Made by a program: the position numbers and the translations under genes
Origin: Morinoia aosen
Lineage: Eukaryota > Arthropoda > Malacostraca > Amphipoda > Talitridae
Reading direction: 5' to 3'
Length of the DNA: 64,000 bases
NCBI GenBank assembly: GCA_030386875.1
Contig: CM059563.1
Span: 44,856,102 to 44,920,101, forward strand
Shown: in pieces, positions 18,876-63,599 of the stretch
Layout of the letters: each line of letters starts with the position of its first letter
Numbering within the stretch: position 1 is the first letter of the stretch
Notes under the pieces: generated by a model
Databases searched by the model: none
Seen by the model: only the letters and a program-made list of their open reading frames with translations
Told to the model about the DNA's origin: nothing

Positions 18876-19155
18876 CGGTGACTGTCTACCCTGTCATCTA
18901 CGGTGACTGTCTACCCTGTCATCTACGGTGACTGTCTACCCTGTCATCTACGGTGACTGTTTACCCTGTCATCTACGGTGAATGTCCGCCCTGTCCTCTA
19001 CGATGACTGTCTACCCTGTCCTCTACGGTGACTGTTTACCTTGTCATCTACGATGACTGTCTACCCTGTCATCTACGGTGACTGTTTACCTTGTCATCTA
19101 CGGTAACTGTCTACCCTGTCCTCTACGGTAACTGTCTACCCGGTCATCTACGGTG
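18876..19155. repeat. 25-bp minisatellite, 11 copies
   Basis: Exact 25-base period, unit cggtgactgtctaccctgtc followed by atcta, with copies differing by one to three bases. Eleven full units and part of another. It lies about 800 bases upstream of the Spätzle-like promoter. Confidence 0.95.
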
Positions 19156-21015: not shown

Positions 21016-21134
21016 AGAAGATTTTAACGCGGGAATTTGAATGCATTTTCTGCTCTCCAGATAGTTGGTGACTGTATTTAGCCTGAGTGTCTTCTTTTTG
21101 GGGTATATTATAATCTGGTGATTCAAGTTCAATG

Positions 21135-21489
21135 CCCCTCAGGGGGATACATCTATTGTATCTATGGGAATAGGCGCTCCCAGGAAGACTATGTGAGGGC
21201 CTGAGCTAAAGGTTAGGTAGGCTTTTTTTTTGTTTAAATAGAATAGGTTTTTGTTTTGTTACGGACCATCTTTTTCGGTTCACTGCTGTCCTGTTTTTCA
21301 GCACCTACTACTTTCTTCTTCAACTTTTTTCTTGTTTCATGAACTTCCTTCTTAGCTTTCTGTTTCTGTGCCCTTTCTGCATAGATTCCGCGTTTCTTTA
21401 ACTCCGTACTAAATGGTGCCTTCTTCCTTCCTCTCTTTGGATAGCCTTTGTTGCGGATAGGGAGGCTTAAACTAACTAATAATCTAATC
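21135..21489 (+). mobile_element. SINE-like retroposon, copy A (355 bp)
   Basis: Flanked by the 13-bp direct repeat ttcaagttcaatg (21122-21134 and 21490-21502), a target-site duplication. It starts cccctcagggggatac and ends in a short taatctaatc repeat. The antisense strand carries a 99-codon Lys/Arg-rich frame that is broken in the other copies. The strand given assumes the taatc repeat is the 3' tail. Confidence 0.8.
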
Positions 21490-21668
21490 TTCAAGTTCAA
21501 TGTGTGCATGTTTAAACGCACTCTTTTTAACACTCTGACCGCAATTGGTTAAACTGAAGTTGACTATTCAACTCGAATTTAAAGCCAATTGTAGTAGGCA
21601 ATTTTGAAAATAGCAAACATAAACTGGATCGTGCCTTCATTTAACGTTGATTAAGTTTTTATGAAGGT

Positions 21669-23520: not shown

Positions 23521-26500
23521 CAACAGCACGGGCTGATTACACGTCGAAATCGACATAATAGTTCGCATTTAGTATGCCACGAATAGGACGTCGTCAGACA
23601 CACAAATCTATTAATTTTTTTTATCGGTCAGCTAAAGAGAATATTTTATACAATTTCAGTGCAAGAACTGAACATTATGTACTCAAGGATTGACTCTGAG
23701 ATGAAATAAAGCTAGGAAAACACAACATCATACACAAACCACGTCTGAAAAACGATAGAATTGATTTACTTTCTTTGCATATTAAATTTGCTTTGCTTAA
23801 GCCTCCGTATAAGGATTCCTCCGTATTTATACATCACGCAGAAAATTCTCTTCCATTTTGTCAAGGTAAAATTAAAAAAGGTATCTTCATAAGTACTTAA
23901 GATCGAAAAATTGTACTTGATGAAATATTCATCGCACATATCAAAAGAAAAGAAAAGCTTGCCTTTGAGTCATTCAAAAAAATTTGTGATAACTCCCTAA
24001 AAGAACGTCGTTCAGAAGACTCTGGGCAAGTTGTGAATAATCTGCTGCCTCATTTTCATGATATGGGACGTAACATATCTCTAAAAATTCATGCGATCCG
24101 CTCTCATTTGGATTTTTGGCGGAGACAATTTGGGAATGTGAGTGATGAACTTGGCCACAGATTTCTTCTGAATATTTCATTGATAGAGCAACTATTCAAG
24201 GGAAAATGGAACCCTGGCATATCGGCAGACTACTGCTGGAATATAAAAAAATCACACTCCCCGCAAGAGACATAGTAGGACAAATGTTTAATCTGACAGC
24301 TCGGTGTTTTTCATTCATAACTAACAATAATAACATATGGTTCATGGTCCAGGAAAATGGTGGCTAATCTAGCATAATAAAGGTCAGATTCAGAATTAGG
24401 ATATTTTTTTACCCCTAAACAGGTTTTATGCAGCATGTAATTTTTCAACCTGAAGTTTGTTGCACAGTGTAATTGCACTGAGCGTAAGAATGATATTTCA
24501 CCCTTCAATATTTCTCGCAGATTGTCAACGTTGTTCACATTGTTGAATTCGGATAAAAAACCTTTTGTCCCGCGCTCCGGCTATTAATAAACAATCATTT
24601 CCTCAAGTACCTCGGCACGTTCGAGACATAAGTTCTCAGAGCCGGCGAGCGAGTGAAGTGGCTTTCAATTTGCCTGTCGATCACGCGTAGAGCGGTCATC
24701 CTAACGTGATGCCCTGGTCTTAATAAGGGCATCAATCTGGTTCATTTTTTTTCTTTTCCAGGGTATTCCTTTTTGATCCGAGTTTTCAGCCGACTCCGTC
24801 GTGTTTTCTTGTATTCTTCTCAATATTAGTAATAGGTTGCTCCTCGATCTAAGCTTTCACTTAGCTTTTCCGAGTTTCTTCCAGTAATATGGACAACAGA
24901 TCATCCAATAAATCCAAAAGTGATTCGCACTTCGGGGAATATTGAAATTGAGGCGTATGGTATCGCGAACCATTGCTTCACCGAAAATATAATCAATTAC
25001 GTGTTTTTCACATGGACAGGAGCGCGTTATGTCGCTACTGAAGATCAAACTATTAAAAAAAGCTTTTGACTCAACTCAAATCTTGAAAATTTTCAGAAAA
25101 AAATGGAAAGTTACGAAAAAAGAAATTGTTATCGCACTTTTTCAGTAGCGAATGTTTTTCAAAAGGGTTTTTGATGTTGGACCTGCAAGTTGGTATAAAG
25201 TCTTTACAAATATCAGCTGCATAAATTCATCGCAATTCCGTTACTCTTTCATAAAAGTCACTGTCGACAAAGACTAAAGGATTTTACGTATCTGAAAACG
25301 TAAACTGTACCTTGACCAATGACCGTAAACTCTTTGTCACACCAGCCTTGAACTTTCTAGAATCCTGCTTACGTCAATACAACATTTAAATTTATTTTCG
25401 TTTTTTTTTAAATTTATGCATACGAAAAGAGTTACGTATTGTTTGTCCTTGAGTAGAAGAGTTCGTTGGAATATCTCAATAAAATAATAGGCCATCTGTT
25501 TACGGAACATTTGTGCGAGCTGTGGACGATCTCTGAGAATAATTTCAATCATTATTTATGCGTATCTCCTGTCCTTGTAACGATTGACGTCATACTCATT
25601 GACACTAATATCTGCATGTCATGAGTTTCAATACTTCAATATGAATATGAAAGGAAGATCCGTTATCGGGATGCAATATCGGTGGTCGGCGAATGGAAAC
25701 TTTTGGCTTGAACGTTTGCTCTTATCAGTTCAACGGCTTACTTAATGTTATCATGCGTTTCACATGAAAAATGATGCCCCGCCCTACGATACACGGCTCT
25801 TACTGGTGGTTGTACGTGTGTGTGCTGATAAAGAAGCTCGTGCCCTGCCCGCGTAAATGACTAAACAAAAGGTGAAGCAGTCATCAAACGCGGGATCGAT
25901 GCTTTGTAGTGTTTATGCCGCAGTTATCGCTACAAAATACAAACATCAGCGACATGGTTTAATGCGAGGTGCTAAGTGACACGATTTTAAAACCATTTAC
26001 GTCGTCGTAACGGTACAGCTGGCGTCACATGTTCTACTAAGTTGATCTGGAAATTGGTGAAAATCAGTTCTCAAATCAAATCCGTCCTAAAAAATATAGC
26101 GACATTGGAGTCTCGAAAAAATCATGCTAGCTAATAATCACAGAATATCATTGTTCGAACAAATTTTTGTTCGTCATCTGTCACATCAAGCCTCTTAAGA
26201 ACCATTTTGTAATTACACCTTCATAGCCTAAACAAAGGGGATATCAAGAGAGGAAGATGCCATTTAGTATGAAATAAGGAACTGGGATCGAGTAATATTG
26301 TTAGTTGCACAAAAAACAGCTCGGTAAACGAGCGAGTTGGCTGTGGTGACGTCACAATTACGTGGCTTCTTCTTGCCGGAAGATCTGATAACAGTTCACC
26401 ATCCTCTGAAGCATCGAACACTGAATGTATTTTCGAAATTGCATCAAAACAGACTAACTTGATGTATTCGACGTTCCCTTCCCGTACGCGGATGTGCTCA

Positions 26501-27646: not shown

Positions 27647-28022
27647 AGAGATTAAGATTTTGATTAATAGTCTAGCTTCCCTAGTCACAACACAAGTGTT
27701 TCCAGGAGAGGAAGGGAGAAGGCGCCTTTCAGTAGGGAACTGAGGGAACGGAAAATCAATGCACAAGGTGTATATTCACACTTTGCGTTAAAAAACAGCA
27801 GGATTGAAAGAAGATTAAGAAACAAAAAAAAGTCGACGAAAGAAATAATAGTAGCTGAAAAAACTATAGCATTGAACTGAAAAGCCCTGTCTGTAACACA
27901 AAAAAAGCCAATTCTATTTCAACAATAGAAAAACTTAACTAGCTTCAGCTTGGGACTTCAGATCTTCCTCCTCGGAGTGTTGATTTCCATACATGCATTA
28001 GTTGCATTCCCTCTTAAGGGGT
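27647..28022 (-). mobile_element. SINE-like retroposon, old diverged copy (E)
   Basis: Aligns along its length with the other copies (reverse orientation relative to copy A): aggaagggagaaggcgcc, gggaactgagggaac, gtagctgaaaaaactata, ttctatttcaaca, ttgatttccatacatgca. Many substitutions, no target duplication left. Confidence 0.55.
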
Positions 28023-39290: not shown

Positions 39291-39884
39291 AATGGGTTCC
39301 CTGTTCGCCTAGTAGACGACTCAATTAGAAAATTTCTCTCCTCTGTTCGCACAAACGTTCCATCGGTTGCCTCTGTTGATAGAAAACAATGTTACGTTTC
39401 ACTATTGTACTTTGGTGCTCAGTCGGAAAAACTAAAATCTGAACTATCCCTCCTTTTATCGAAGTTTTTATACGCAGTGTGATTTCAAATTTATTCCTGT
39501 CAATTCCTTGTCAGGTTTTTTTTCAAATTTAAGGATGAACTTCCTAAAGGGATGCTAAGCTCGGTTGTATACAAGCATAGTTGTGCACGATGTGGTGCAT
39601 CTGAAAACGTTGGATCTACATCCCGTAGCCTGCGTATTCGTGTGGCTGAGCATGCTGGACGAAGTCACCGTACTAATAACCTTTTATCAGCACCTTCTCA
39701 CTCTGCAATACGCACACATGCAGAAAAATGCGACCTACCAGTTAGACTATCTGATTTTGAAGTATTATGCCGAGGAAGTAACCCAGTAGAACTCAGAATA
39801 TTAGAATCTCTTTTCATTTTTAGACTAAAGCCAAATCTCAATGATATGCAATCTGCCTATCCCCTACAAATAGTTTGTTAGCAA
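39291..39884 (+). pseudogene. Penelope-like element: end of reverse transcriptase and GIY-YIG endonuclease
   Basis: One frame reads NGFPVRLVDDSIRKFL, then CYVSLLYFGAQSEKLKSEL, FKFKDELPKGMLSSVVYK, HSCARCGASENVGSTSRSL and RIRVAEHAGRS. This is the order at the C-terminus of Penelope-like proteins: the last part of the reverse transcriptase, linker, then a GIY-YIG domain in which the second motif is ENVGST. The frame has one TGA at 39480-39482 and ends at 39881. The 5' part is absent, so it is a truncated dead copy. It lies in a cluster of non-coding repeat units probably from the same family. Confidence 0.75.
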
Positions 39885-40000
39885 ATGTTTCTAATTTCAT
39901 GTTTGTTTTTACCATTGTGATTTTCTGAATGATGTCTGATTTGTAATCTTTAATCTGAATCTTTAATCTTTGTAATCTTTCTGAATGATGTCTGATTTGC

Positions 40001-40860
40001 CTTCTAACACACGGATCTCAATGTATGCAGATGATGTTCAAATTGCAATAACAAGTTCAGTATCGGAAATACCACAGACGCAAATTAAAGCCGAAACTTT
40101 ACTGACTAGCCTGAAATCATGGTACGACCGAAATGGTCTCAAATTAAATGCTAATAAAACACAATGCATTATTTTTGGATCCAAAGATGCAATTAAAAAA
40201 ACTTCAGATCTTACTCTTGCAGTTGGAAATGATAAAATTAATGCATCAGAAAAAGTTAAAAATCTAGGTATCTGGTTCGATAGAAATATGTCCTTCAAAT
40301 CTCACGTTGAGACTACTTGCAACAAAATCTACGGAACTTTAATGTTTTTTCATCGTATAAAAAGTATGCTAGACGAAAAATCCAGATTATTAGCTATTCA
40401 ATCCCTTGTGTTATCGCGCATTGACTACTGCAGCCTAGTATGGGGAGACTTACCTCAATACCTTCAAAGGGACTTACAAAAATGCATGAATTTTGCAGCC
40501 AAGGTGGTATGCAACGGTAATTTCAAAAGAAGTGATCACGTAACCCCTCTCCTCAATAAACTCGGCTGGATTCCTATTCAAGAAAGGCTCCTCTTGCAGA
40601 AGGCCCAATACGTATTCTCCTCGTTATATCTTCCTCAGAGCAATGCTGAGATAGTGCGTTTCCATCCACCCACTGTAACCAATCAAAAACCGAACAGAAA
40701 CAATAATGTCTTAGTCAACTATCGTTCATCTCACTTAGGGCAGAAGGCTCTGTCCATATCAGGCGCTTTACTGTGGAACAAACTTCCCCTGAATATTAAA
40801 GTCCCTCAAAGACCTAGAGAATTTAAAGCCAAAATAACTCGTCATCTTGTGTCTCAATAA
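40001..40860 (+). pseudogene. 3' part of a CR1/L2-type LINE reverse transcriptase
   Basis: An open frame of about 290 codons begins within the reverse transcriptase: ISMYADDVQI carries the catalytic YADD motif, then NGLKLNANKTQCIIFGS, the thumb, LVLSRIDYCSLVWGDLP and a C-terminus ending GALLWNKLPLNIKVP. This is typical of CR1/L2-group LINEs. The endonuclease and the finger half are missing, so it is a 5'-truncated insertion, though the surviving frame has no stop and is probably recent. A 22-base direct repeat (39925-39946, 39979-40000) lies just upstream. Confidence 0.75.
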
Positions 40861-51300: not shown

Positions 51301-54300
51301 AAAGAGTGCGTGTGATGGCAATAACAGTAGGAGGTGATGCAGTTGATGGTATTAACACGAGAGGATGCAGGTGGTGCAGTAATGCAAATTTGTATGTGCA
51401 GGTGGTGGCAATAACGCAAAGTTGTATGCGCAGGTGGTGGTGGTAGAGGGCGCCGTCAGTGAGCTGGAGCAGCTACTGCTGCAGCCGTTGCTGAAGGCCT
51501 GCAGCTGCGTGTACATCGCTGCCTTCATAACCCCAGAGAACGACAGCTGCAGCGATGCAGGTGTTCACAGCTCTAAAGGTATACGTCCCTACTGCTATAG
51601 GCAGGTGCTTGTTTTGAAATTAGAGTTGCAGGTATTTACTTCTGTTTTACTAGAACTCCATGGTCTAGTCAAGTGTGGTCTGCTCGTTCCTACTCCCTCC
51701 TTGTAAACTAAATACCTGCACACTACATTACAAATGCAAATTTACTTTTTTTTTAAATGGCAATTTGTATTGACTGAAATTCATTCAAAAGTAATCCCAT
51801 TGTAAAAATGAGGATTTAGAATTATGGACAAGGATTTAAATAGTTCATTTGGAAACGTTTCTTTGAAAGAACATATATGGTCCAAAAATATTTGTTTAAC
51901 CATCTTATGTTTTTGTAAACGTCTACTGTAATGAGGTACTAAATTATGATTGATAACTAATACTTCATGAGTTGTGAAGGTTGTTAACGCGGCTACTTTT
52001 CCACGACGTATTGTGTTCTTGAAGGAGGCTAATTTCCAGATGCGAGCTGGCTGTTGAGACATGTGGACACAGAAGAAGTTACACTGGCTGAAATTTTCCG
52101 CGCGTGCTGCGGCACTGTCTCCAATGCTGCCACTCCTGCTGCCAAGGTATGGAGGCGTCTCACGTCTGCAATATTAAACTACTCAAAGCTAGCAACTGTT
52201 GTATTGATGAATCTATTTCCGATACGTTTGATACAGTACAGGCTCTACGTCAATGTTTTCCTCTTGGTGTTGGCAAAATTTTATGTTTGTGGTGCATAAC
52301 AGGTATTAGCTATTTGACTTATATCTACTTCATTAAAAGGGTTAAAATGGTGTCCTCTGGATAAGTGACGAGAGTATAAAATTGTTCGTATTCATCAAGT
52401 TGATGCTGAAATAGTATTTTGATTTATTTTAATATGTAGCAGATAACTGAAAGTGGGTGATTCGTAATGTGTAGAAGTTACGTAGTGTTGGACATATCTT
52501 CACGCAGTAGGAGGCCATGTGTATAACTTATTTTTGAGGGCTTTAATTCATCAAATGGTTATAACAGATCGTATTCTCAATGCATTTGATGGAAATTTAA
52601 AAATTTCCCCCCTTGCTCTAACCAAAGCAAGGTTCCAAATTTTGCCCTATTTTAATACAGGGTAGTTGAGCGATGGCAATGACAAGCGAGAAGACAAACA
52701 AAAAACCAATCGTGCTTACAAAGAAATTAGATAATATAAGTTTTATAAGCATACACTTGTAGATAAAGATAGTTTAGATCGGTGGTTCTTAACCTTTTTA
52801 CTCCCACACCCCTCTAAAAATTGTCTGTGTAAATTTTGTGTAGATTGACTGGTAAATAAGTGCTCACAGCAAAGAATATTGTAGATTAGATTAGATCATT
52901 AGTTAGTTTAAGCCTCCCTATTCGCAGCAAAGGCGATCCAAAGAGAGGAAGGAAGAAGGTACCATCTAGTATGGAGTTGAGGGAACGCGGAATCTATGCA
53001 GAAAGGGCATAAAAACAGTAAGATAAGAAAGAAGTTCGTGAAACAAGATCAAAGTTGAAGACGAAAGTAGTAGGTGCTGAAAAAACAGGACAGCAGTGAA
53101 CCGAAAAAAGATGGTTCTAAACATAAAAGCATTTTATTTCAACAAAAAGAAGGCCTACCTAACTCTCAGCTCGGGCCCTCACATTGTCCCCTTGGGAGCG
53201 CTAATTCCCATAGATGCAATATTTGTATCACCCTGAGGGGAAAGAATATTATAAATAGGTCCTCAAATATATTCAACAGTGAAAGTTCACTCTTTCTTGA
53301 AAACATTACTGGGAAAAATCAGGCTTTACTGCGGAGGTTCGCACCCCCATGTTAAGAATCACTGGTTTAAATAGATGAGCTGAGAGTATTTGTTTGTGTC
53401 AACGTCCGTGTCGTATCGAAGATACCCATGACAAATGGTCAGAGAGAGCATTGTTGATTTTGTCTCTCAATTTACACTCTAGTTATTACTTTTATGTTCC
53501 ATTTCTCTTGTGTAAGACAGTTTCAGATAAAGGCGCTTTCAAATTATAGACGTGCATTGTTTTTCGAACCTTCAAATTTCATGTATACCTTGTGTTGCGC
53601 CGAAACCTCTTCTAGCTCCATTGGTGGTTGAGACAGTCCAAGAGAACACGTTGTGTAATGTCATTGTTCCAAATTTGACCTTTCAAAAAAAATAGTCTCA
53701 ATATAGTCTTGTGAAAATAGTCTCAGTATATTGTATTTCTTGTTCAATTTCCTCAATAAACTTTCCTTTGGAGTTCACTGCCGAGTGACAGTATTTACTT
53801 CATTTTGATGTCGGTGACGGTGGTTGTGGTAACGGCAATATGAGTACAAAAATTCTGACGTTAAAACAGGGTGTCTACTAGGTAGTAAAGTAGTAAAAAG
53901 TAGTAAAAAGTAGTAAAAAGTAGTAAAATTTGAGAAGTAGTAAAAAAGTAGTAAAAAGTAGTAAAATTTACCTCTGGGTAGTAAAAAACTGTGAAGTGGA
54001 ATAATTCTTTGAAAATTGAAAGTAATGTAGAGGGGTATAAAGTGTATTAAGATTATTTAAAATTTATTTCTCCCAGCATTAGCAATTTGCCGCAGTTTAT
54101 GTGAAATATTCCTGTATGGCGGGATGTAATTTCAGGATTGGGGGACCCAAAATAGAGAAATGTTCCAAAATTTTTGGAGACGACTGTAAATAGTTCATTT
54201 TTTCTCATTCAGTTCGATATGAAGGATATCGAATTGCTTTATGAGGGAAGGTTAATTTGGGCCATTTCAATGTTTAAATTTTACTTATCTTCAATGCCAT

Positions 54301-57300
54301 TTCATAAATTTTTAGGCATTAAATTTTTAATAATCAGTGAACAATCAAGGATTGTGAAGTTTTCTAAGATTGAATTCAGTTTCCTGCTTGAGTTTTTTAA
54401 ACAATAACCTCAAGTGGCTATTTCTCTCTATAATATTCATCATTCATGTCTTATGCTGATTTTCTTTGGATATACCCAATAGCGTTACCTTCGAAGAACA
54501 AACTTATCCTTCGTCATATATTAGGCATTTAAACGTCCTTGGCCTAAGTTTAATAATAGCACTTCACTCAAATTATTGCATCATTTAACTATACCTCACA
54601 AATGTGAATATAAAAGATAAGCAGTGAAGAACCAAGTGATATAACCTTCCAAATCTTATTCAGAGATGAATATTCTCACACTACGCTCTTCAATGTAAAC
54701 AAAAATGGGATTATGTGCAATTTAAGGGAAAAACTGGATTTATATATCAACTCTTTCACATCACGTTCCTTGGATCACAATTTTGAATGTATCATATTGC
54801 AATACATCATTACATCCTCAATTTAGCATCAGTACATTACAATCCTCCGGCGAAGATGTCAAAGGAACTTCTCTGCAGTTCATTTACATCCAGCAATAAT
54901 ATCTTCTTTTGAAAAGACGAGTTTATTCTGTCCGTTTCGGTGTGAGGGGAACAATAACAATTTACTGTAACTTTGAATGTTTTTTTTTTGTAGAAAAGCT
55001 TACCTCGTTGTAAAGCTGAAAGTTTTTCTCTTTCTCATGACATTACCCCTCAGGTGAATACAATTATTGTATCTATAGGAATTAGCACTCCCAGGGGGGA
55101 ATGTCAGGGCCTAAGCTGAAAGTTAGGTAGTCTTTTTTTTGTTGAAATAAAATATTTTTTTTATGTTAAGGACCACCTTTTTTCGGTTCACTGCTGTCCT
55201 GTTTTTCAGCACCTACTACCTTCTTCTTCAACTTTGGTCTTGTTTCATAATCTTCTTTCTCAATTTACTGTTTCTATGCCCTTTCTGCGTAGATTCCGCA
55301 TTTCATTCAACTCCATACTAAATGGTGCCTTCCTCCTTCCTCTCTTCGATCGCATTTGTTGCTGGGGAGGGAGGCTAAAACTAACATCTAATCTAATCCC
55401 ATGACATTAATTTATGTCCAAATACTGAAAGAATTATGCTATAAAATTGTCTATTAGAACAAAATGTAATCTTTCAAATGAGAATTAAGTTCCTTTTGGC
55501 AGTCATGGCGACTCACGGTTCAGTTCAGTTACCTCCAGGATGTTGTCAGAGGAGCATGGTGATGCTACATCTTATTAAAGTTCTGTCTTCTATCAGGTTG
55601 TAGCAGAAGTTCTGTCCATTTTTTTAGATATGAAATGAAGTGAAAATCCTCTCAAAAATGCATTTATTTAGTCTTCAATATAGGCACCATTTTTATTAAT
55701 TACGTCCTCCCATTTTCTGGTAAGCTTTTTGATTCCTTCTTCATAAAATTTAGATGGTTGGACGCACAAAGAGAAACTAGTTTCATTTCGAACTCTTCTC
55801 TCGTAGTAAGCCTTTATTCCATTAAATGATTCTGTAAGCCCCTGAAAAGGTGAAAATCGGTTGGAGCAAGATCTGGAGAATATGGTTGGTGATGCATGAC
55901 TTCCCAGCAAAATACTTCAACAAGACTTTTGGTTGCATTTGAAGGGGGGGGGGGGGGGGGGTGTGTCTGCCATTGTCATGGTGCAGAATCACTCCTTTTC
56001 GATTGATCAAAAATGGCCGTTTTTCCTGTAAACTGCTTTTGAACGAGTTAGCTTCTGACAGTAAACTTCAGATGTTATTTTTTGATTGTCACCCATTAAT
56101 TCATTATAAACAATTCCCTTCAAATCCCAGCATCCACTCAAAAGAATTTTTTTAGGGTGCAGTCCTCTTCTCGGCTGTGGAATGGGCTTTGAACAACAAC
56201 TAAGACACTGTCTTTTGCGCTTAACATTGTTGTAAAGGATTCACTTTTCGTCACCAGTTATGATTCGGTCTAGAAAAGGGTCTGGACTTCATGAGAACGC
56301 AGTGAAACACAACAGGTCGCCCGTATGTTGCCTGTTGATTTCTGACAAATTGTGTGGGACCCTGTGTCTCAGCCTTTGAGATTTTGCCAAATCTTTTCAT
56401 TACCCAATATATGGTCATATGGCTTACATTAAAGGTTTTGTTCATTTCTCTAGTGGTGCAGGTTTGATTTTCATCAATGGCAGCTAGCAATTGCTCAGAA
56501 TTGAGTTTTTTTTAGCATCTTGCTCATGGTAAGTCTTAGACTGTAGGCATATTTTTTTTAAACAAAAAACGATCTTCTGCAGGTCTTTTCATTCACAACA
56601 TCATTTCCATGTGTCTTTGAGTGTTTTTGCTGCTGAGCTTGCCATATTGCCTTTATGAAATTCAAACAGTAAAATATGCCTGACATGCTCTTTACTTGGA
56701 GTGTACCTTTGGGCTGAAAATAGTTTTTAATTACGATAATTATCACAGAATATGAGAGAAGAAACATTTTATTAATTACCACAGATAAGCATACAACATT
56801 AAGCTAAATTGAAGTAATCTTGCCCTGAACATAAAGCTCAACAATTGGACAGAACTTATGTTACAACCTGATACTATATGTATGTATATGAAAGTTACAC
56901 GAAATTTGCATTTCCGTGATTTGTTCCATAATATAATGTTAATAACCAATTTATCATTATTGATCGCAATTAGGGTGCCAATTTAAATTTTGAGGTACGT
57001 TAGATATAGTTTACAAAAATTCGTTCACATATTCAATTCGTTCAATAGTTTACAATCTCATATTTACGAAGTGTCATAGTGTTTAGTCACAATAAAGTTC
57101 CCTGATATTCTACCCTGCAGTGTAAAGTGATGTGACAATCACCTGGTGTCTACTAGTTTCCAGTTGGTTTATTTTTTGGTATCATGAATGGTTGTCCTCA
57201 TCGTTGAAAGATGTTAAGACATGGTTCTTTGTCTTAACATTCGATGGAGTCCATTAGGATGAGGTAACTTAGGAATTTAGGTAACTTTTTCTCAATGATG

Positions 57301-58073: not shown

Positions 58074-58525
58074 GTGCGGTGCCTCCTTAGTGTGAGGGCT
58101 TCAATGTGTTCATCTCCTGACCGTTGTGTATAGCATCGGTCATTTGCGTGCTTGAAAATAGTTGAATGGATGTTTTGGTGCTTGGTGAATTGGTGTATAT
58201 CTAACTGAAGGTGTTAGAACAGGTGAGTTTAATGACTGTATCCTACGACTCGTTACGTTAAGAGGTCTTTTGTGCCAACTAAATTGATAAGGTATCATTT
58301 TGTGCATTGGTCTTTCCAATAGCTCTCAATGGGTTATTACTATTGTGCCCATGGGAATTAGCACTCACAGGGGAACGTGTGAGGTTCCAAGCTGAAGGTC
58401 AGGTGGGTTTTACTTTCCTTCAAATAGAATTAGTTTTTGTGTTGTCACGGGCCATCTTTTTTGGTTCACTGCTGTCCGTTTTTACAGCAACGATTACTTT
58501 CTTCTTCAACTTCTACCTTGCTTCA

Positions 58526-59459
58526 GCCCACACACTAACAATATCAACACTAAATGCAAAACTAGGCTGAACGTCCTCCGAGCACTAACACACACTACAT
58601 ACGGCCACTCCAAGGAAGACATAACAACAGTATACAAACAGTTCATCAGACCCATCCTCACTTACGCACACACATCTTGGTACGCAGACACTGCTCGCAC
58701 ACACTTACAGAAACTACAGTCCACACAAAACACAGCGTTGCGCATTGCCACGGGCTGTACACGATCGACCCCTATAGCACACCTACACGAAGAAGCCCTT
58801 GTCCTCCCCCTCCTTGACCACATGAACACGCTAGGGACAAACTTCTACACCTCCACACAAGACCCTGCCCACCCGCTACACTACATGCAACAACCCCGGC
58901 CAACCCAACGAACATTACACACCACCCCGGCCACACACCTCAGAACATTATATGACTCCCTCCCTCCCTGCCCCCCTGATACCTCACTACGCACACACAT
59001 ACACACACAGTTCACCTCACGCGCCCTCGCTGCCCTACCCCCTAACTCCCTCGGAGTGAGACCCCCCCCGTCCCCTCGACGGAGCGATCCCTCCCCCGGC
59101 AGGATCGAGTCCACCTGGCGCGGCTGCGGTGCGGGCACCACACTTCACTCCCCTCATACATGCACAGAATAGGACTTGCGGAGGACGACAGCTGCGTCTG
59201 GTGCCATGCCAACGTGGGCGATCTTCCGCATGTCCTCCTACACTATCCCGCCCTACACGCACACCGACACACACACCAGATACATGCACTGGAGCACCTC
59301 TGGACTCGCCCCGCGGACGTCGTGAGGTTTCTGCACGACGCGGGCGTCTTCCAGAGGCCCATATAACCACACCCCTCTTCGCCTCGAGCCGGGCCCGGTC
59401 TGGGGCGGCCCTGGCCGCGGCGGACCCCTTCGAGCGGCCGTCGGGGCAAAACAACAACA
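58526..59459 (+). mobile_element. 5'-truncated I/Jockey-type LINE with target duplication
   Basis: Flanked by the perfect 11-bp repeat accttgcttca (58515-58525 and 59460-59470). It ends in an acaacaacaa tail. Its base composition is G+C- and C-rich, unlike its surroundings. Confidence 0.85.
58560..59366 (+). pseudogene. LINE reverse transcriptase C-terminus
   Basis: Reads RLNVLRALTHTTYG, FIRPILTYAHTSWYAD and LQKLQSTQNTALRIATG, then after a frameshift near 59090 SLPSYMHRIGLAEDDSCVWC and LPHVLLHYPAL. This is the thumb and the C-terminal cysteine/histidine region of Jockey/I-group LINE ORF2. The polymerase core is absent, so it is inactive. Confidence 0.75.
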
Positions 59460-59499
59460 ACCTTGCTTCATAAACTTTTTTCAATCTTGCTTGTTTATG

Positions 59500-60600
59500 T
59501 GCACTGAGTGTGGGGACTGATACAACTTGTGTATAAAGTCACCGTTCCCTTAACCCGTCGCCTCGTCCTGGACTCTTAGAAGGTCGGCAAAGCTAGTACA
59601 TGTTTCACATCAGCAAACCTAGGGTTGCTATATATGGTCTTAAGCGTCTCGTTGAGCGCTATTCATTGGTGTAAGGTAAAATTAGGTGGGGGGAACAGGG
59701 AAGGAGAGGTAACAAGCTCAAATCTGTATGAATTCTTCTGCTCAGTCTGGAGTGTAGCTACCGGCGCTGCACAGCCTCTTAATTAGAAGGCCAGCAGTGT
59801 AGCTGAGACATACCAGCGCACACTTTACCTCTAAGAAGGTCACCATCATTTTTATTTTCTTATGTTTTTTGTTCCAAAAATGGGAGTCCAAATCCACAGA
59901 TTTACTCCTAGGCAAAAAATAATACCACCATTGTATTCGGGAGGAAAAGCTCTATGCATATCAAACTCTTTACAAACAATGAAACTGCTTGATAACAGCC
60001 TATACACAAAATGAACTATAAAATAAAAACTGTTTTACATATAGTGCACATAAATCCTGAACTATTGGACCTGAAAAAAAAATTCACATACCACAAGATT
60101 CAGCAACTCGGAATCTATGAAAATGCATTATAAAAAAACATGAAGGTGCAATAAATAAAAAAGGGCCAGTGATTTTCTGATTTCTGTTTTTTGTATTTTA
60201 CCGAAATAAAAACTCAAATTTCGTAGATTTTCATTGGGGTAGCAGCATTTTTTTCCCCACTGACAGAAAGAGTAACTCTTTCTCTTTACCATGAACCCCC
60301 AATGAAACTTCTAACGTGATTAATGAATGTACAGTAAGTTGCACAGTTGACCCATTTTCTTCAAACCTCTTGGTAGGTCGACCATGTGGAGACGGGTTAA
60401 TTCCATGCAAAATAGAGCATTCCTCTTTGCTCTCTTTGGAACTTTTTCTTTGTGGTTCAGGGTACTTAAGCTAACTTATTGCCTAATCTAATGAAATTTT
60501 CAAATGCCTTATAACTCACTCTAAGAGCTGGAAATTTCACTGTTCCCTTTACCAATTTTACTGGTACCAAATTATTGAATTATTGAGCTTGGTGAAGGGA
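59500..60600. other. Gene-free DNA
   Basis: No coding frame of note, no clear repeat. A downstream exon of the unrecognised gene could lie here but none stands out. Confidence 0.35.
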
Positions 60601-61033: not shown

Positions 61034-63599
61034 ATGTACGCCAAAAATAAAAACAAATTAAAACAACGAATAAACCCCAACAAAAACAACCTAAGCACTG
61101 CTACCAACGTAGATGCAACAAACCCCAAAACTAACAATATCACCAGGAAGATAAGCGAAAACAATGAAACATTTGACCAAACAACCGAAAAAAACTCCAC
61201 CGGAACCAAACGGTGCTACCTGTAAGGTGGACCAATTGGAGGCTAAATTAAATGAAGTGCTGAATAGACTTGCGGCAGATGATGCAACCAAATGCATCAA
61301 CCCCGATAAACATGAAGTTGAAAAAGAAGCACAAAATGTAGACGATCGAATAAGGAAAATCGAAAATACACTCGAAAAAATCCTAGAAATGACGAAAGCG
61401 CAGAACATAGGAAAAAACAGTAAAATCATGGGCTGCGAGAAAGAAAATGTGAGAAAACAATGCAAAGCTAACAAATACACACCCATATCGTTGAACCAAG
61501 AAATGACGAAGAACGACCATTATACAAAGTTCTTCTCGGTCAAATTCAAAATCGAAGAAAGAAACCAAATAAATCCATTTTGCCTCCAAGAAGAAATAGT
61601 CAAAATAACTGGTTTAAAGGCGAAAGGATAACTTATTCAGGTAAAGATAGCTTTATCATAGAAACTCGAAACAAACTCCAATCTGAGCGCATCACCAGAC
61701 TTAATAACGTCGACGGCATTAATTGCCAGATCAGCGAACACCCATACTACAATCAATCCAAAGGACTAATATATATATTCAAGAATACGATGTAGATAAT
61801 ATAGAAGATTTTGTGGAAGGCCTGAAGAGCCAGTACAATATCAGTGACGCTGTCCGTGCCAGCTTCATTAAAACTCGATTCTCCCAAACCACCCCACTCC
61901 TACTAACCTTTAATAGCTACACTACACCAGACTCTATATATATCCCAGGCGAAAAATCAGATACGATAGTATACCCATTTATTAATAGACCAATGATCTG
62001 CCACAAATGTCAAAACTACGGCCACACAGCCAAACACTGCCATAACGAAGCAAACTGTAAACGCTGCGGAGAAACAGGCCATGACAGCGAACAATGTGGC
62101 AGCGCAGCGAACAATGTGGCAGCGCCCTCTCCTGCATGCATTGCAAACGTCAACATGAAACTGGCCACAGAGAATGCCCGAAACATATCATGGAAACAGA
62201 AATATGCAAAGTCCAACAAGAACAGCGAGTTAATAGGCGTCGTGCTGTACAGATAGTCACAGGACACTCCGAGATACCAATATCAGATACGAACACCCCC
62301 ACAACTCATTTCAATATAACAATGCAGGAAAACGAAAAGCGGAAAATTACTCCATGGCTCCTAGAAAAATGTATTGCAAACCAAATCCAAAGAAAACCCA
62401 AATCTATTCGATCGGGCGGCAAAAACACATTTATTGTAGAATTAGATCACACACGACAAAAAGATGAAATACAGAAAATCAAAGACACAAACAACATCCC
62501 TGTGCAAGTAACAGAAAATAACTATGTAAATCTTTCAAAAGGACTTGCCTACATCTATAACTACGACTTCACCAACTTCGAGAAATTCAAACAAGGTTTA
62601 ATGGAAAACCAGATAATCAAAAATGTTGAACCAGCAAATTGGATAAAAAGCCGTAACACAAATGCAAAAGCAATACTTCTAACTTTCAGAGGCTCAACCC
62701 CCCCTGAGTATATCGACATCCTTGGCCAAGACTGCAAGAGTAGGATATATGAATACTTCGACCGCCCTATGATGTGTAAAAAGTGCTTGGAATACAACCA
62801 TACTGCTAAAAGATGTACCAGTGAAGAGTTCGTGTGTGGAAAATGCGCAAAAAAAGGCCATGAAGCAACAAATTTCACGGAAAACAACTTGACATGCTAC
62901 CACTGCGGAAACAATCACAAAACTGGAGACCGGACTTGCCCGGAACAACGCAAGCAACAAGAACTAATTTCTATCCGTACTAAACAAAACGTATCAAGAG
63001 AACAAGCCCTTATAATATACCACAAACGATCCCCACAACTCGATTAAAGCTACGCACAAATAACCAGAAATCGAACGGATCAAATACCTAAAGTACCAAC
63101 ACCCCAACCCTTTATGGCGGCTACCAAAAACCAAACGATCACCGAACAAAATATGGCTCCCCCACTTTGTAACGAACCAGGTACAACTGATAACACAACC
63201 GAAACACCAGAAACCAAACCACCGCAAACTTCACAACGCGACCACGAAACATGCGAAAAAGAGATACTCCGCATTAAACCCAACCCAGCACAATTGCTCA
63301 AATCCACAATTAATATTGAAACTACAGCCGAAGGATCTGAAAATGAGGAAGATGGCACGAGCGAATGCAACCCTATTATGAGACAAGAAGCCAGACGAAT
63401 ATTCAACGAATTCAAACCCCCAAAGCAGCACAAACCTTCCAAAACCCAAAACAAGAAGCGACCAAGATCACGATCAAAATCACGATCCCCCACCTACAGC
63501 CGCAACAGACATGATAAACGACAAATTTACTCAGATGAGGAACAATCACACTACTCTCGTGACTCTAGGATTAGAGATAGATCACCCAAAAGAAAGTAA
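61034..63599 (+). pseudogene. LINE ORF1 (gag-like) with two homologous RNA-binding modules, broken
   Basis: N-terminus Asn/Lys-rich, then a coiled coil (61225-61400; VDQLEAKLNEVLNRL, RIRKIENTLEKILEM). Module 1: GKDSFIIE, NQSKGLIYIF, LLTFNSYTTPD, then zinc knuckles RPMICHKCQNYGHTAKHC, CKRCGETGHDSEQC and CMHCKRQHETGHREC. Module 2 (62360-62950) repeats this: GKNTFIVE, NLSKGLAYIY, LLTFRGSTPPE, RPMMCKKCLEYNHTAKRC, CGKCAKKGHEA and CYHCGNNHKTGDRTC. The tail is Arg/Ser-rich (RSRSKSRSPTYSRNR). Frameshifts near 61610 and 61785, a 20-bp tandem duplication at 62086-62125 and a TAA at 63045-63047 disrupt it. Such proteins bind LINE RNA in the retrotransposition particle; this copy is dead. Confidence 0.75.
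62086..62125. repeat. 20-bp tandem duplication
   Basis: agcgaacaatgtggcagcgc occurs twice in a row. Removing one copy restores the third zinc knuckle to the frame of the second. Confidence 0.9.

Follow-up and report, generated by a model that had tools for sequence, protein, structure and literature searches.

We found that a family of short repeats represented in a 64,000-base stretch of DNA (the window) is a long-lived, very abundant and non-autonomous non-LTR retroposon of SINE-like character, a reading to which we give a probability of about 0.9. Its SINE-like nature, originally predicted from the window sequence, is borne out by 28,648 genomic occurrences of one family 17-mer, by target-site duplications around 38 of 48 full-length copies and by truncated copies that also have duplications.

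Copies in the window and in the genome

Three full-length copies were predicted in the window, and all three are real, with their limits where they had been placed: copy A (355 bp, plus strand, 21135-21489, of the (TAATC)n-tail subfamily), copy B (357 bp, minus strand, 52884-53240) and copy C (354 bp, plus strand, 55046-55399). The family limits are fixed, as A, B and C all have the CCCCTCAGGGG head and the (TAATC)n tail, and over its full length A is 86% identical to B and 84% identical to C. Copy A lies between two exact 13-bp copies of TTCAAGTTCAATG (21122-21134 and 21490-21502), and copy C lies between two exact 10-bp copies of CATGACATTA (55036-55045 and 55400-55409). The 13-bp duplications of copy B agree in 12 of 13 bases, with one at the tail end (52871-52883) and the other at the head end (53241-53253).

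We also found the old copy that had been proposed, on the minus strand at 27664-28012 (model positions 8-348), with 68.5% identity to A. The proposed split copy is likewise present, as three plus-strand pieces: a 5' piece at 58325-58525 (model 4-205), a middle piece at 59460-59555 (model 195-269, a weak profile match with E 7e-4) and a 3' piece with the tail at 60397-60488 (model 264-355). The first two pieces are separated by a LINE-like insertion on the plus strand with an (AAC)n tail (58527-59460), which has its own 10-bp duplication, CCTTGCTTCA (58517-58526 and 59461-59470). We take this insertion to be a LINE; a Pfam search with it gave no match. A further weak profile match (E 6e-5) is a short fragment of about 70 bp on the minus strand at 26213-26282 (model 258-336). 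Together, the window has eight matches to the profile, which was built from 44 full copies, and they cover 1,868 of the 64,000 bases; block-shuffled versions of the window and of the random sample described below gave no match at E 1e-3.

Copies A and B each have a near-identical twin that includes the flanks (99.3% and 99.7% identity over 3.2-3.4 kb). These twins share the contig (C8, about 44.00-44.04 Mb) and the orientation of A and B, lie about 870 kb further upstream and reflect either a large duplication or an uncollapsed haplotype. A similar twin pair with 99.6% identity (L017 and L029) is found on two other contigs.

The high copy number that had been predicted from the window holds for the genome (1.99 Gb searched, in 29 contigs). 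The exact 17-mer TCGGTTCACTGCTGTCC occurs 28,648 times, with 14,092 forward and 14,556 reverse occurrences, and the reversed pattern, used as a control, has 0 occurrences in the same genome. Since the 17-mer is exact in 8 of the 32 bystander copies that span its place (query matches, L002 and L010 were left out, and the duplicate pair L017/L029 was kept), this count scales to some 115,000 copies, an estimate with broad uncertainty. The family size is roughly 10^5 copies. Random sampling of twenty 3-kb stretches from the 18 contigs of known length gave six profile matches, or about five copies, in three stretches, covering 1,473 of 60,000 bases (2.5%). Divergence from the consensus ranges from 2% to 33%, and the closest pair of copies differs by 0.8%.

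The element is short (355 bp), dispersed and non-coding, as 145, 65 and 31 of 200 shuffles have open reading frames at least as long as the longest in the three subfamily consensuses. An antisense coding reading was rejected for the same reason, its longest frames being inside the shuffle range.

Insertion and limits of the element

Target-site duplications were found in 38 of 48 full-length copies, and 23 of these 38 are 13 or 14 bp long. In comparison, a swapped-flank control, in which the two flanks came from different copies, had a mean of 0.5 duplications over 20 trials. Duplicates (L001, L002, L009, L010 and L029) were left out of the duplication, T-run and flank counts, and copies too near a locus end were left out of the duplication count. 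The ten copies that have no duplication are 4 of the 42 scoring above 300 bits and all 6 of those scoring below. Full copies start at CCCCTCAGGGG and finish in TAATC or TAA repeats, after which the duplication follows, so that target-site duplications and a 3' simple-repeat tail occur together, as in SINEs. On the tail side, the duplication edge is A or T in 30 of 35 cases on each side; on the head side, it is A or T in 22 and 24 of 35, near the local base composition (window G+C 33-43%).

We found one related empty site. Locus L154 has a full copy between two TGCTCAGCAATATT, and the corresponding repeat in L153, which is 87-93% similar, has TGCTCAGCAACATT once; the target is 14 bp, and the L153 version differs from that of L154 by one base.

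Truncated copies point to the end at which insertion starts. Copies truncated at the 5' end retain the tail. Duplications flank 9 of 14 of them, against a control mean of 1.07 of 15, and the other five have none; these 14 are the 17 truncated copies found minus two that lie in a larger repeat and L141, where an upstream tail is met first. Hence, priming took place at the TAATC end. Among 11 tail-only places, two (L082 and L098) have the last 24-28 bases of the element between duplications of 11-12 bp, which is the outcome of target-primed reverse transcription from the tail after early 5' truncation, and nine have no duplication. Forty tail places with their upstream sequence were taken at even steps (20 per tail, 400 bp upstream, all on contig C1), and 23 of them reach model position 20 or less, with the other 17 beginning later, at many points. 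The target-primed retroposition that had been proposed from the tails and the variable duplications of the window copies is therefore borne out by 38 of 48 duplications against a control of 0.5, by 9 of 14 truncated copies and by one empty site.

In the mechanism that we propose, an RNA spanning the CCCCTCAGGGG head to the tail would be taken by an endonuclease and a reverse transcriptase that we infer to be LINE-encoded. Reverse transcription would begin at a nick in T/A-rich DNA and be primed on the 3' repeats. These repeats would slip, so that their number varies, and the first strand would often get to the head.

The original prediction had named copies extending far beyond both limits as the sign of a larger element, and we looked for them in the flanks (150 bp per side) of 48 full-length copies. 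One similar pair was found upstream and two were found downstream, and none of these starts at the element edge in both copies. Hence, these copies stand as elements in their own right rather than as pieces of a larger one.

A minority of copies does lie within a larger repeat. In L003/L154 and L134/L153, and probably also in L133, this repeat carries a truncated, (TAA)-tailed copy (model 195-354); the repeat is at least 2 kb long, is about 87-92% alike between two copies and continues beyond the family tail. A second element sharing the 3' part, a candidate raised by the recurring break at model position 195, was rejected, since the break is that of the truncated copy within the larger repeat. 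Eight head-bearing matches end short of position 335. Three of them run into the end of a locus, and three others into a LINE-like insertion, a nested copy and a copy that abuts them, respectively; the remaining two are L035 (13-305) and L028 (9-239).

We also observed that 5 of the 17 truncated copies directly adjoin another family copy (L117, L125, L139, L141 and L149), which meets the truncated one by its tail end in four cases and by an internal stretch in L139. Hence, the family seems often to insert into itself. At L110, a TTAA site within the 3' end of a family copy is interrupted by an insert whose ends resemble CACGTT...AACGTG; we take this insert to be piggyBac-MITE-like.

Head, tail and helper

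No clear tRNA-type A and B boxes had been seen in the window copies, and this absence stands: the best box pair has a score of 11, which 89 of 100 shuffles reach. A tRNA, 5S or 7SL head, for which a search had been suggested, was looked for with ARAGORN and Rfam, and neither such a head nor one from an snRNA was found. ARAGORN gave 0 tRNA in the window and eight loci, and Rfam gave 0 matches in the window at the gathering cut-off. For two copies searched at E up to 10, Rfam gave three weak matches below the cut-off, to a plant-type snoRNA (twice) and a bacterial sRNA. A known RNA or ribozyme at the head was rejected because none of these is credible.

Within consensus positions 93-164 we found four sense-strand T runs (5, 5, 6 and 6 bases); the antisense strand has a single T4. 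Likewise, runs of four or more T number at least four on the sense strand in 52 of 52 copies and 0-3 on the antisense strand. The T runs are present in all three subfamily consensuses; hence, they belong to the source genes. Animal Pol III transcripts end at four or more T, so a full-length sense Pol III transcript is unlikely. As far as its sequence goes, the element has neither the A and B boxes of a Pol III promoter nor a front part clear of early terminators. Transcription is probably not by ordinary Pol III in the sense direction, and our guess would be a Pol II or read-through transcript.

The element may instead be a conventional SINE whose Pol III small-RNA head has diverged past recognition and whose T runs are tolerated or bypassed, which we consider unlikely while granting it a real chance. 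Its size, copy number, tail and duplications fit such a SINE, and GGTTCACTGC at consensus positions 142-151 is B-box-like and falls within a comparatively well-conserved stretch. However, shuffles reach the box pair score as readily as stated, the T runs are in every subfamily consensus and the head has no Rfam or ARAGORN match. In addition, the B-like site near 143 is far past the usual distance of a B box. Predicted folds have no excess stability over shuffles (z of -0.01 for the whole element, -0.39 for the head, -0.54 for the tail and 0.64 for the antisense strand), and unusual RNA stability was rejected as a feature of the family on these scores.

The two kinds of tail were compared among three subfamilies, into which copies were grouped by hand. 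The subfamily A and B consensuses differ at 1 of the last 60 bases and at 23 of the 293 before them. Against the (TAA)-tailed consensus, which comes from only three copies, subfamily A has 6 differences in the first 190 bases, 12 of 105 at 191-295 and 14 of 58 at the 3' end. The simplest reading of these consensuses would be a swap of the 3' part while the front half stayed the same; a 3' end that changes faster is a possible source of the same difference. Exact-string counts in the genome are 6,532 for the (TAA) tail and 3,771 for the (TAATC) tail, and the former is inflated since the larger repeat carries truncated copies (2 of 20 sampled places).

A LINE sharing the family's 3' end, as a helper might, was sought in several ways. 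None of the 40 sampled tail places on contig C1 joined LINE-like sequence, a result that diverged, short or rare sharing could escape. The 17 truncated tail places comprise five that abut a family copy, two in the larger repeat and ten with mutually unshared upstream sequence. In ten stretches downstream of reverse-transcriptase matches (10 among the 150 listed), there was no (TAATC)2 tract; eight of these stretches have a clear LINE 3' end, and two (L067 and L074) have none.

Exact tail patterns with non-family upstream bases occur at 8, 5 and 55 places. The reversed control gave 25, so the 8 of the first pattern are not above chance. We examined 28 of these 68 places, and most proved to be family copies that have acquired indels or insertions. 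At eleven, the tail has no family sequence just upstream; of these eleven, L084 is more likely an interrupted copy. In L103, L105 and L106, (TAATC)n occurs with no family sequence. Five odd rows among the 100 tail places listed are also family copies, three of them interrupted, and two of those three (L108 and L109) are one duplicated locus. Tail counts show only seven upstream bases, too few to rule out on their own a LINE that shares at least 30 bases; hence, the 40 places were sampled. A helper with both a long shared 3' end and a high copy number is not in evidence, and a possible helper would be a LINE present in a few hundred copies or one whose sharing is short or structural.

These results also bear on the idea that the family is an internally deleted LINE derivative of the bipartite type, as for RTE, with a LINE 5'UTR and its promoter as the head and a LINE 3'UTR as the tail. 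The absence of a small-RNA head would fit this origin; SINE heads typically come from 7SL, tRNA, 5S or snRNA, and both bipartite families and heads of undetermined origin are on record in passages of PMC7245038. However, with 23 of 40 tail places reaching position 20 or less, ten of the others having unshared upstream sequence and all ten stretches after reverse-transcriptase matches being free of (TAATC)2, which a LINE of a few hundred copies could escape, we consider this origin improbable. A DNA transposon (MITE) with chance flanking repeats would share the fixed limits but is practically excluded, since the duplications vary from 9 to 16 bp rather than having one length, a variable microsatellite forms one terminus, the two termini do not make up inverted repeats, and copies truncated to the tail side have duplications.

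Two observations concern the LINEs themselves. The 3'UTR of one LINE family (L065, L075-L078) holds 21 of 22 bases of consensus positions 27-48 in antisense, inside a GGCGC...GCGCC stem. The score of this match was reached by 1 of 200 block-shuffled queries, and 223 kb of masked genome gave 31.9 bits at best, compared to 36.5 bits for the match. It recurs in four of four other LINE copies fetched, with two changes in L077, and we regard it as a weak lead. Separately, 8 of 10 LINE 3' ends (L065, L066 and L068-L073) finish in a unit of 7-10 bases given twice, and AAG or AAGT follows the doubled unit in seven of the eight (e.g. AACAAGTAACAAGTAAG), across several families.

Relation to known retroposons and other features

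Four diagnostic strings of the family had no occurrence in the literature text searched, and literature on crustacean, isopod, Armadillidium and TAATC SINEs gave no such family by title. We stop short of strict SINE membership, since neither a Pol III promoter nor a LINE-shared tail was found. Judged against the literature rather than repeat databases, our call is that the family is SINE-like and distinct in having neither a recognisable Pol III head nor a traceable LINE tail.

The eel pair UnaSINE1/UnaL2 (L2 clade) has (TGTAA)n repeats. The family is like this pair in having a short-repeat 3' tail, target-site duplications and no poly(A), and it differs in having no partner LINE 3' end that we could find and no tRNA-derived head. 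At the 3' end of the family, the predicted fold has a GCCTTC...GGGAGGC stem-loop followed by the short repeats, so that a possible stem-loop just before the tail may be a further likeness; stem-loop and repeats together would resemble the unit that UnaL2 and other stringent-type LINEs recognise. Since shuffled sequences fold about as stably, we treat the stem-loop as a guess, and the family has a likeness to the stringent type, not membership. According to sections of PMC4176376, LINEs of the stringent type need a stem-loop at the 3' end and have the tail in common with their SINE partners.

Bird SINEs built on bipartite RTE sequence, MeloSINE and snoRTE are similar in that the head is not from tRNA, 7SL or 5S, as portions of PMC7245038 describe them. 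They differ in that no RTE sequence was recognised in the family and the host is another one. We take the similarity as a likeness only. The trypanosomatid SIDER with Pr77 is similar, from partial accounts, as a short non-autonomous retroposon with a promoter of another kind at its 5' end. RIME and NARTc are trypanosomatid retroposons that are grouped with SIDER. The trypanosomatid elements differ from the family in that, in the same partial accounts, their 5' ends are shared with LINEs and HDV-like ribozymes are reported, neither of which was seen here.

A bolder reading, which is tentative and on the unlikely side, is that the family represents a SINE-like class with neither a Pol III small-RNA promoter nor sequence shared with a helper LINE, that has reached about 10^5 copies and that switches its helper by swapping the 3' module. 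In this reading, Pol II or read-through transcription would make the RNA, which fits the four or more internal T runs of every copy examined, and one RNA lineage would exchange (TAATC)n and (TAA)n modules on nearly the same front half. The two tails are a natural test of a change in helper choice. If transcription is truly not by Pol III, the question would be how about 10^5 copies arose without the promoter thought to let SINEs propagate themselves. In decapods, and across arthropods generally, SINEs are said to be rare (parts of PMC10454600). A family near 2.5% of the genome might escape masking with existing libraries.

Other features were noted along the way. The genome has 17 arthropod hemocyanin matches (PF00372), with tandem clusters on contig C23 at about 9.01-9.06 Mb (five matches) and on contig C13 at about 64.80-64.90 Mb (ten matches), and 14 of the 15 clustered matches have open frames of over 500 aa. 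For one hemocyanin that was compared, the closest PDB entries are 1hc1 and 6l8s, which we take to be decapod crustacean hemocyanins. The host is likely to be a malacostracan crustacean.

In the window, overlapping open frames at 61155-63599 have CCHC-like zinc-knuckle spacing and are presumably LINE ORF1-like; the two frames tested gave no Pfam match. At 39483-40860, an RVT_1-like fragment scores just under the curated cut-off beside another frame, which we take to be Penelope GIY-YIG-like and which has no Pfam match. Finally, 18876-19155 is a tandem array with a 25-bp unit in 11.2 copies.
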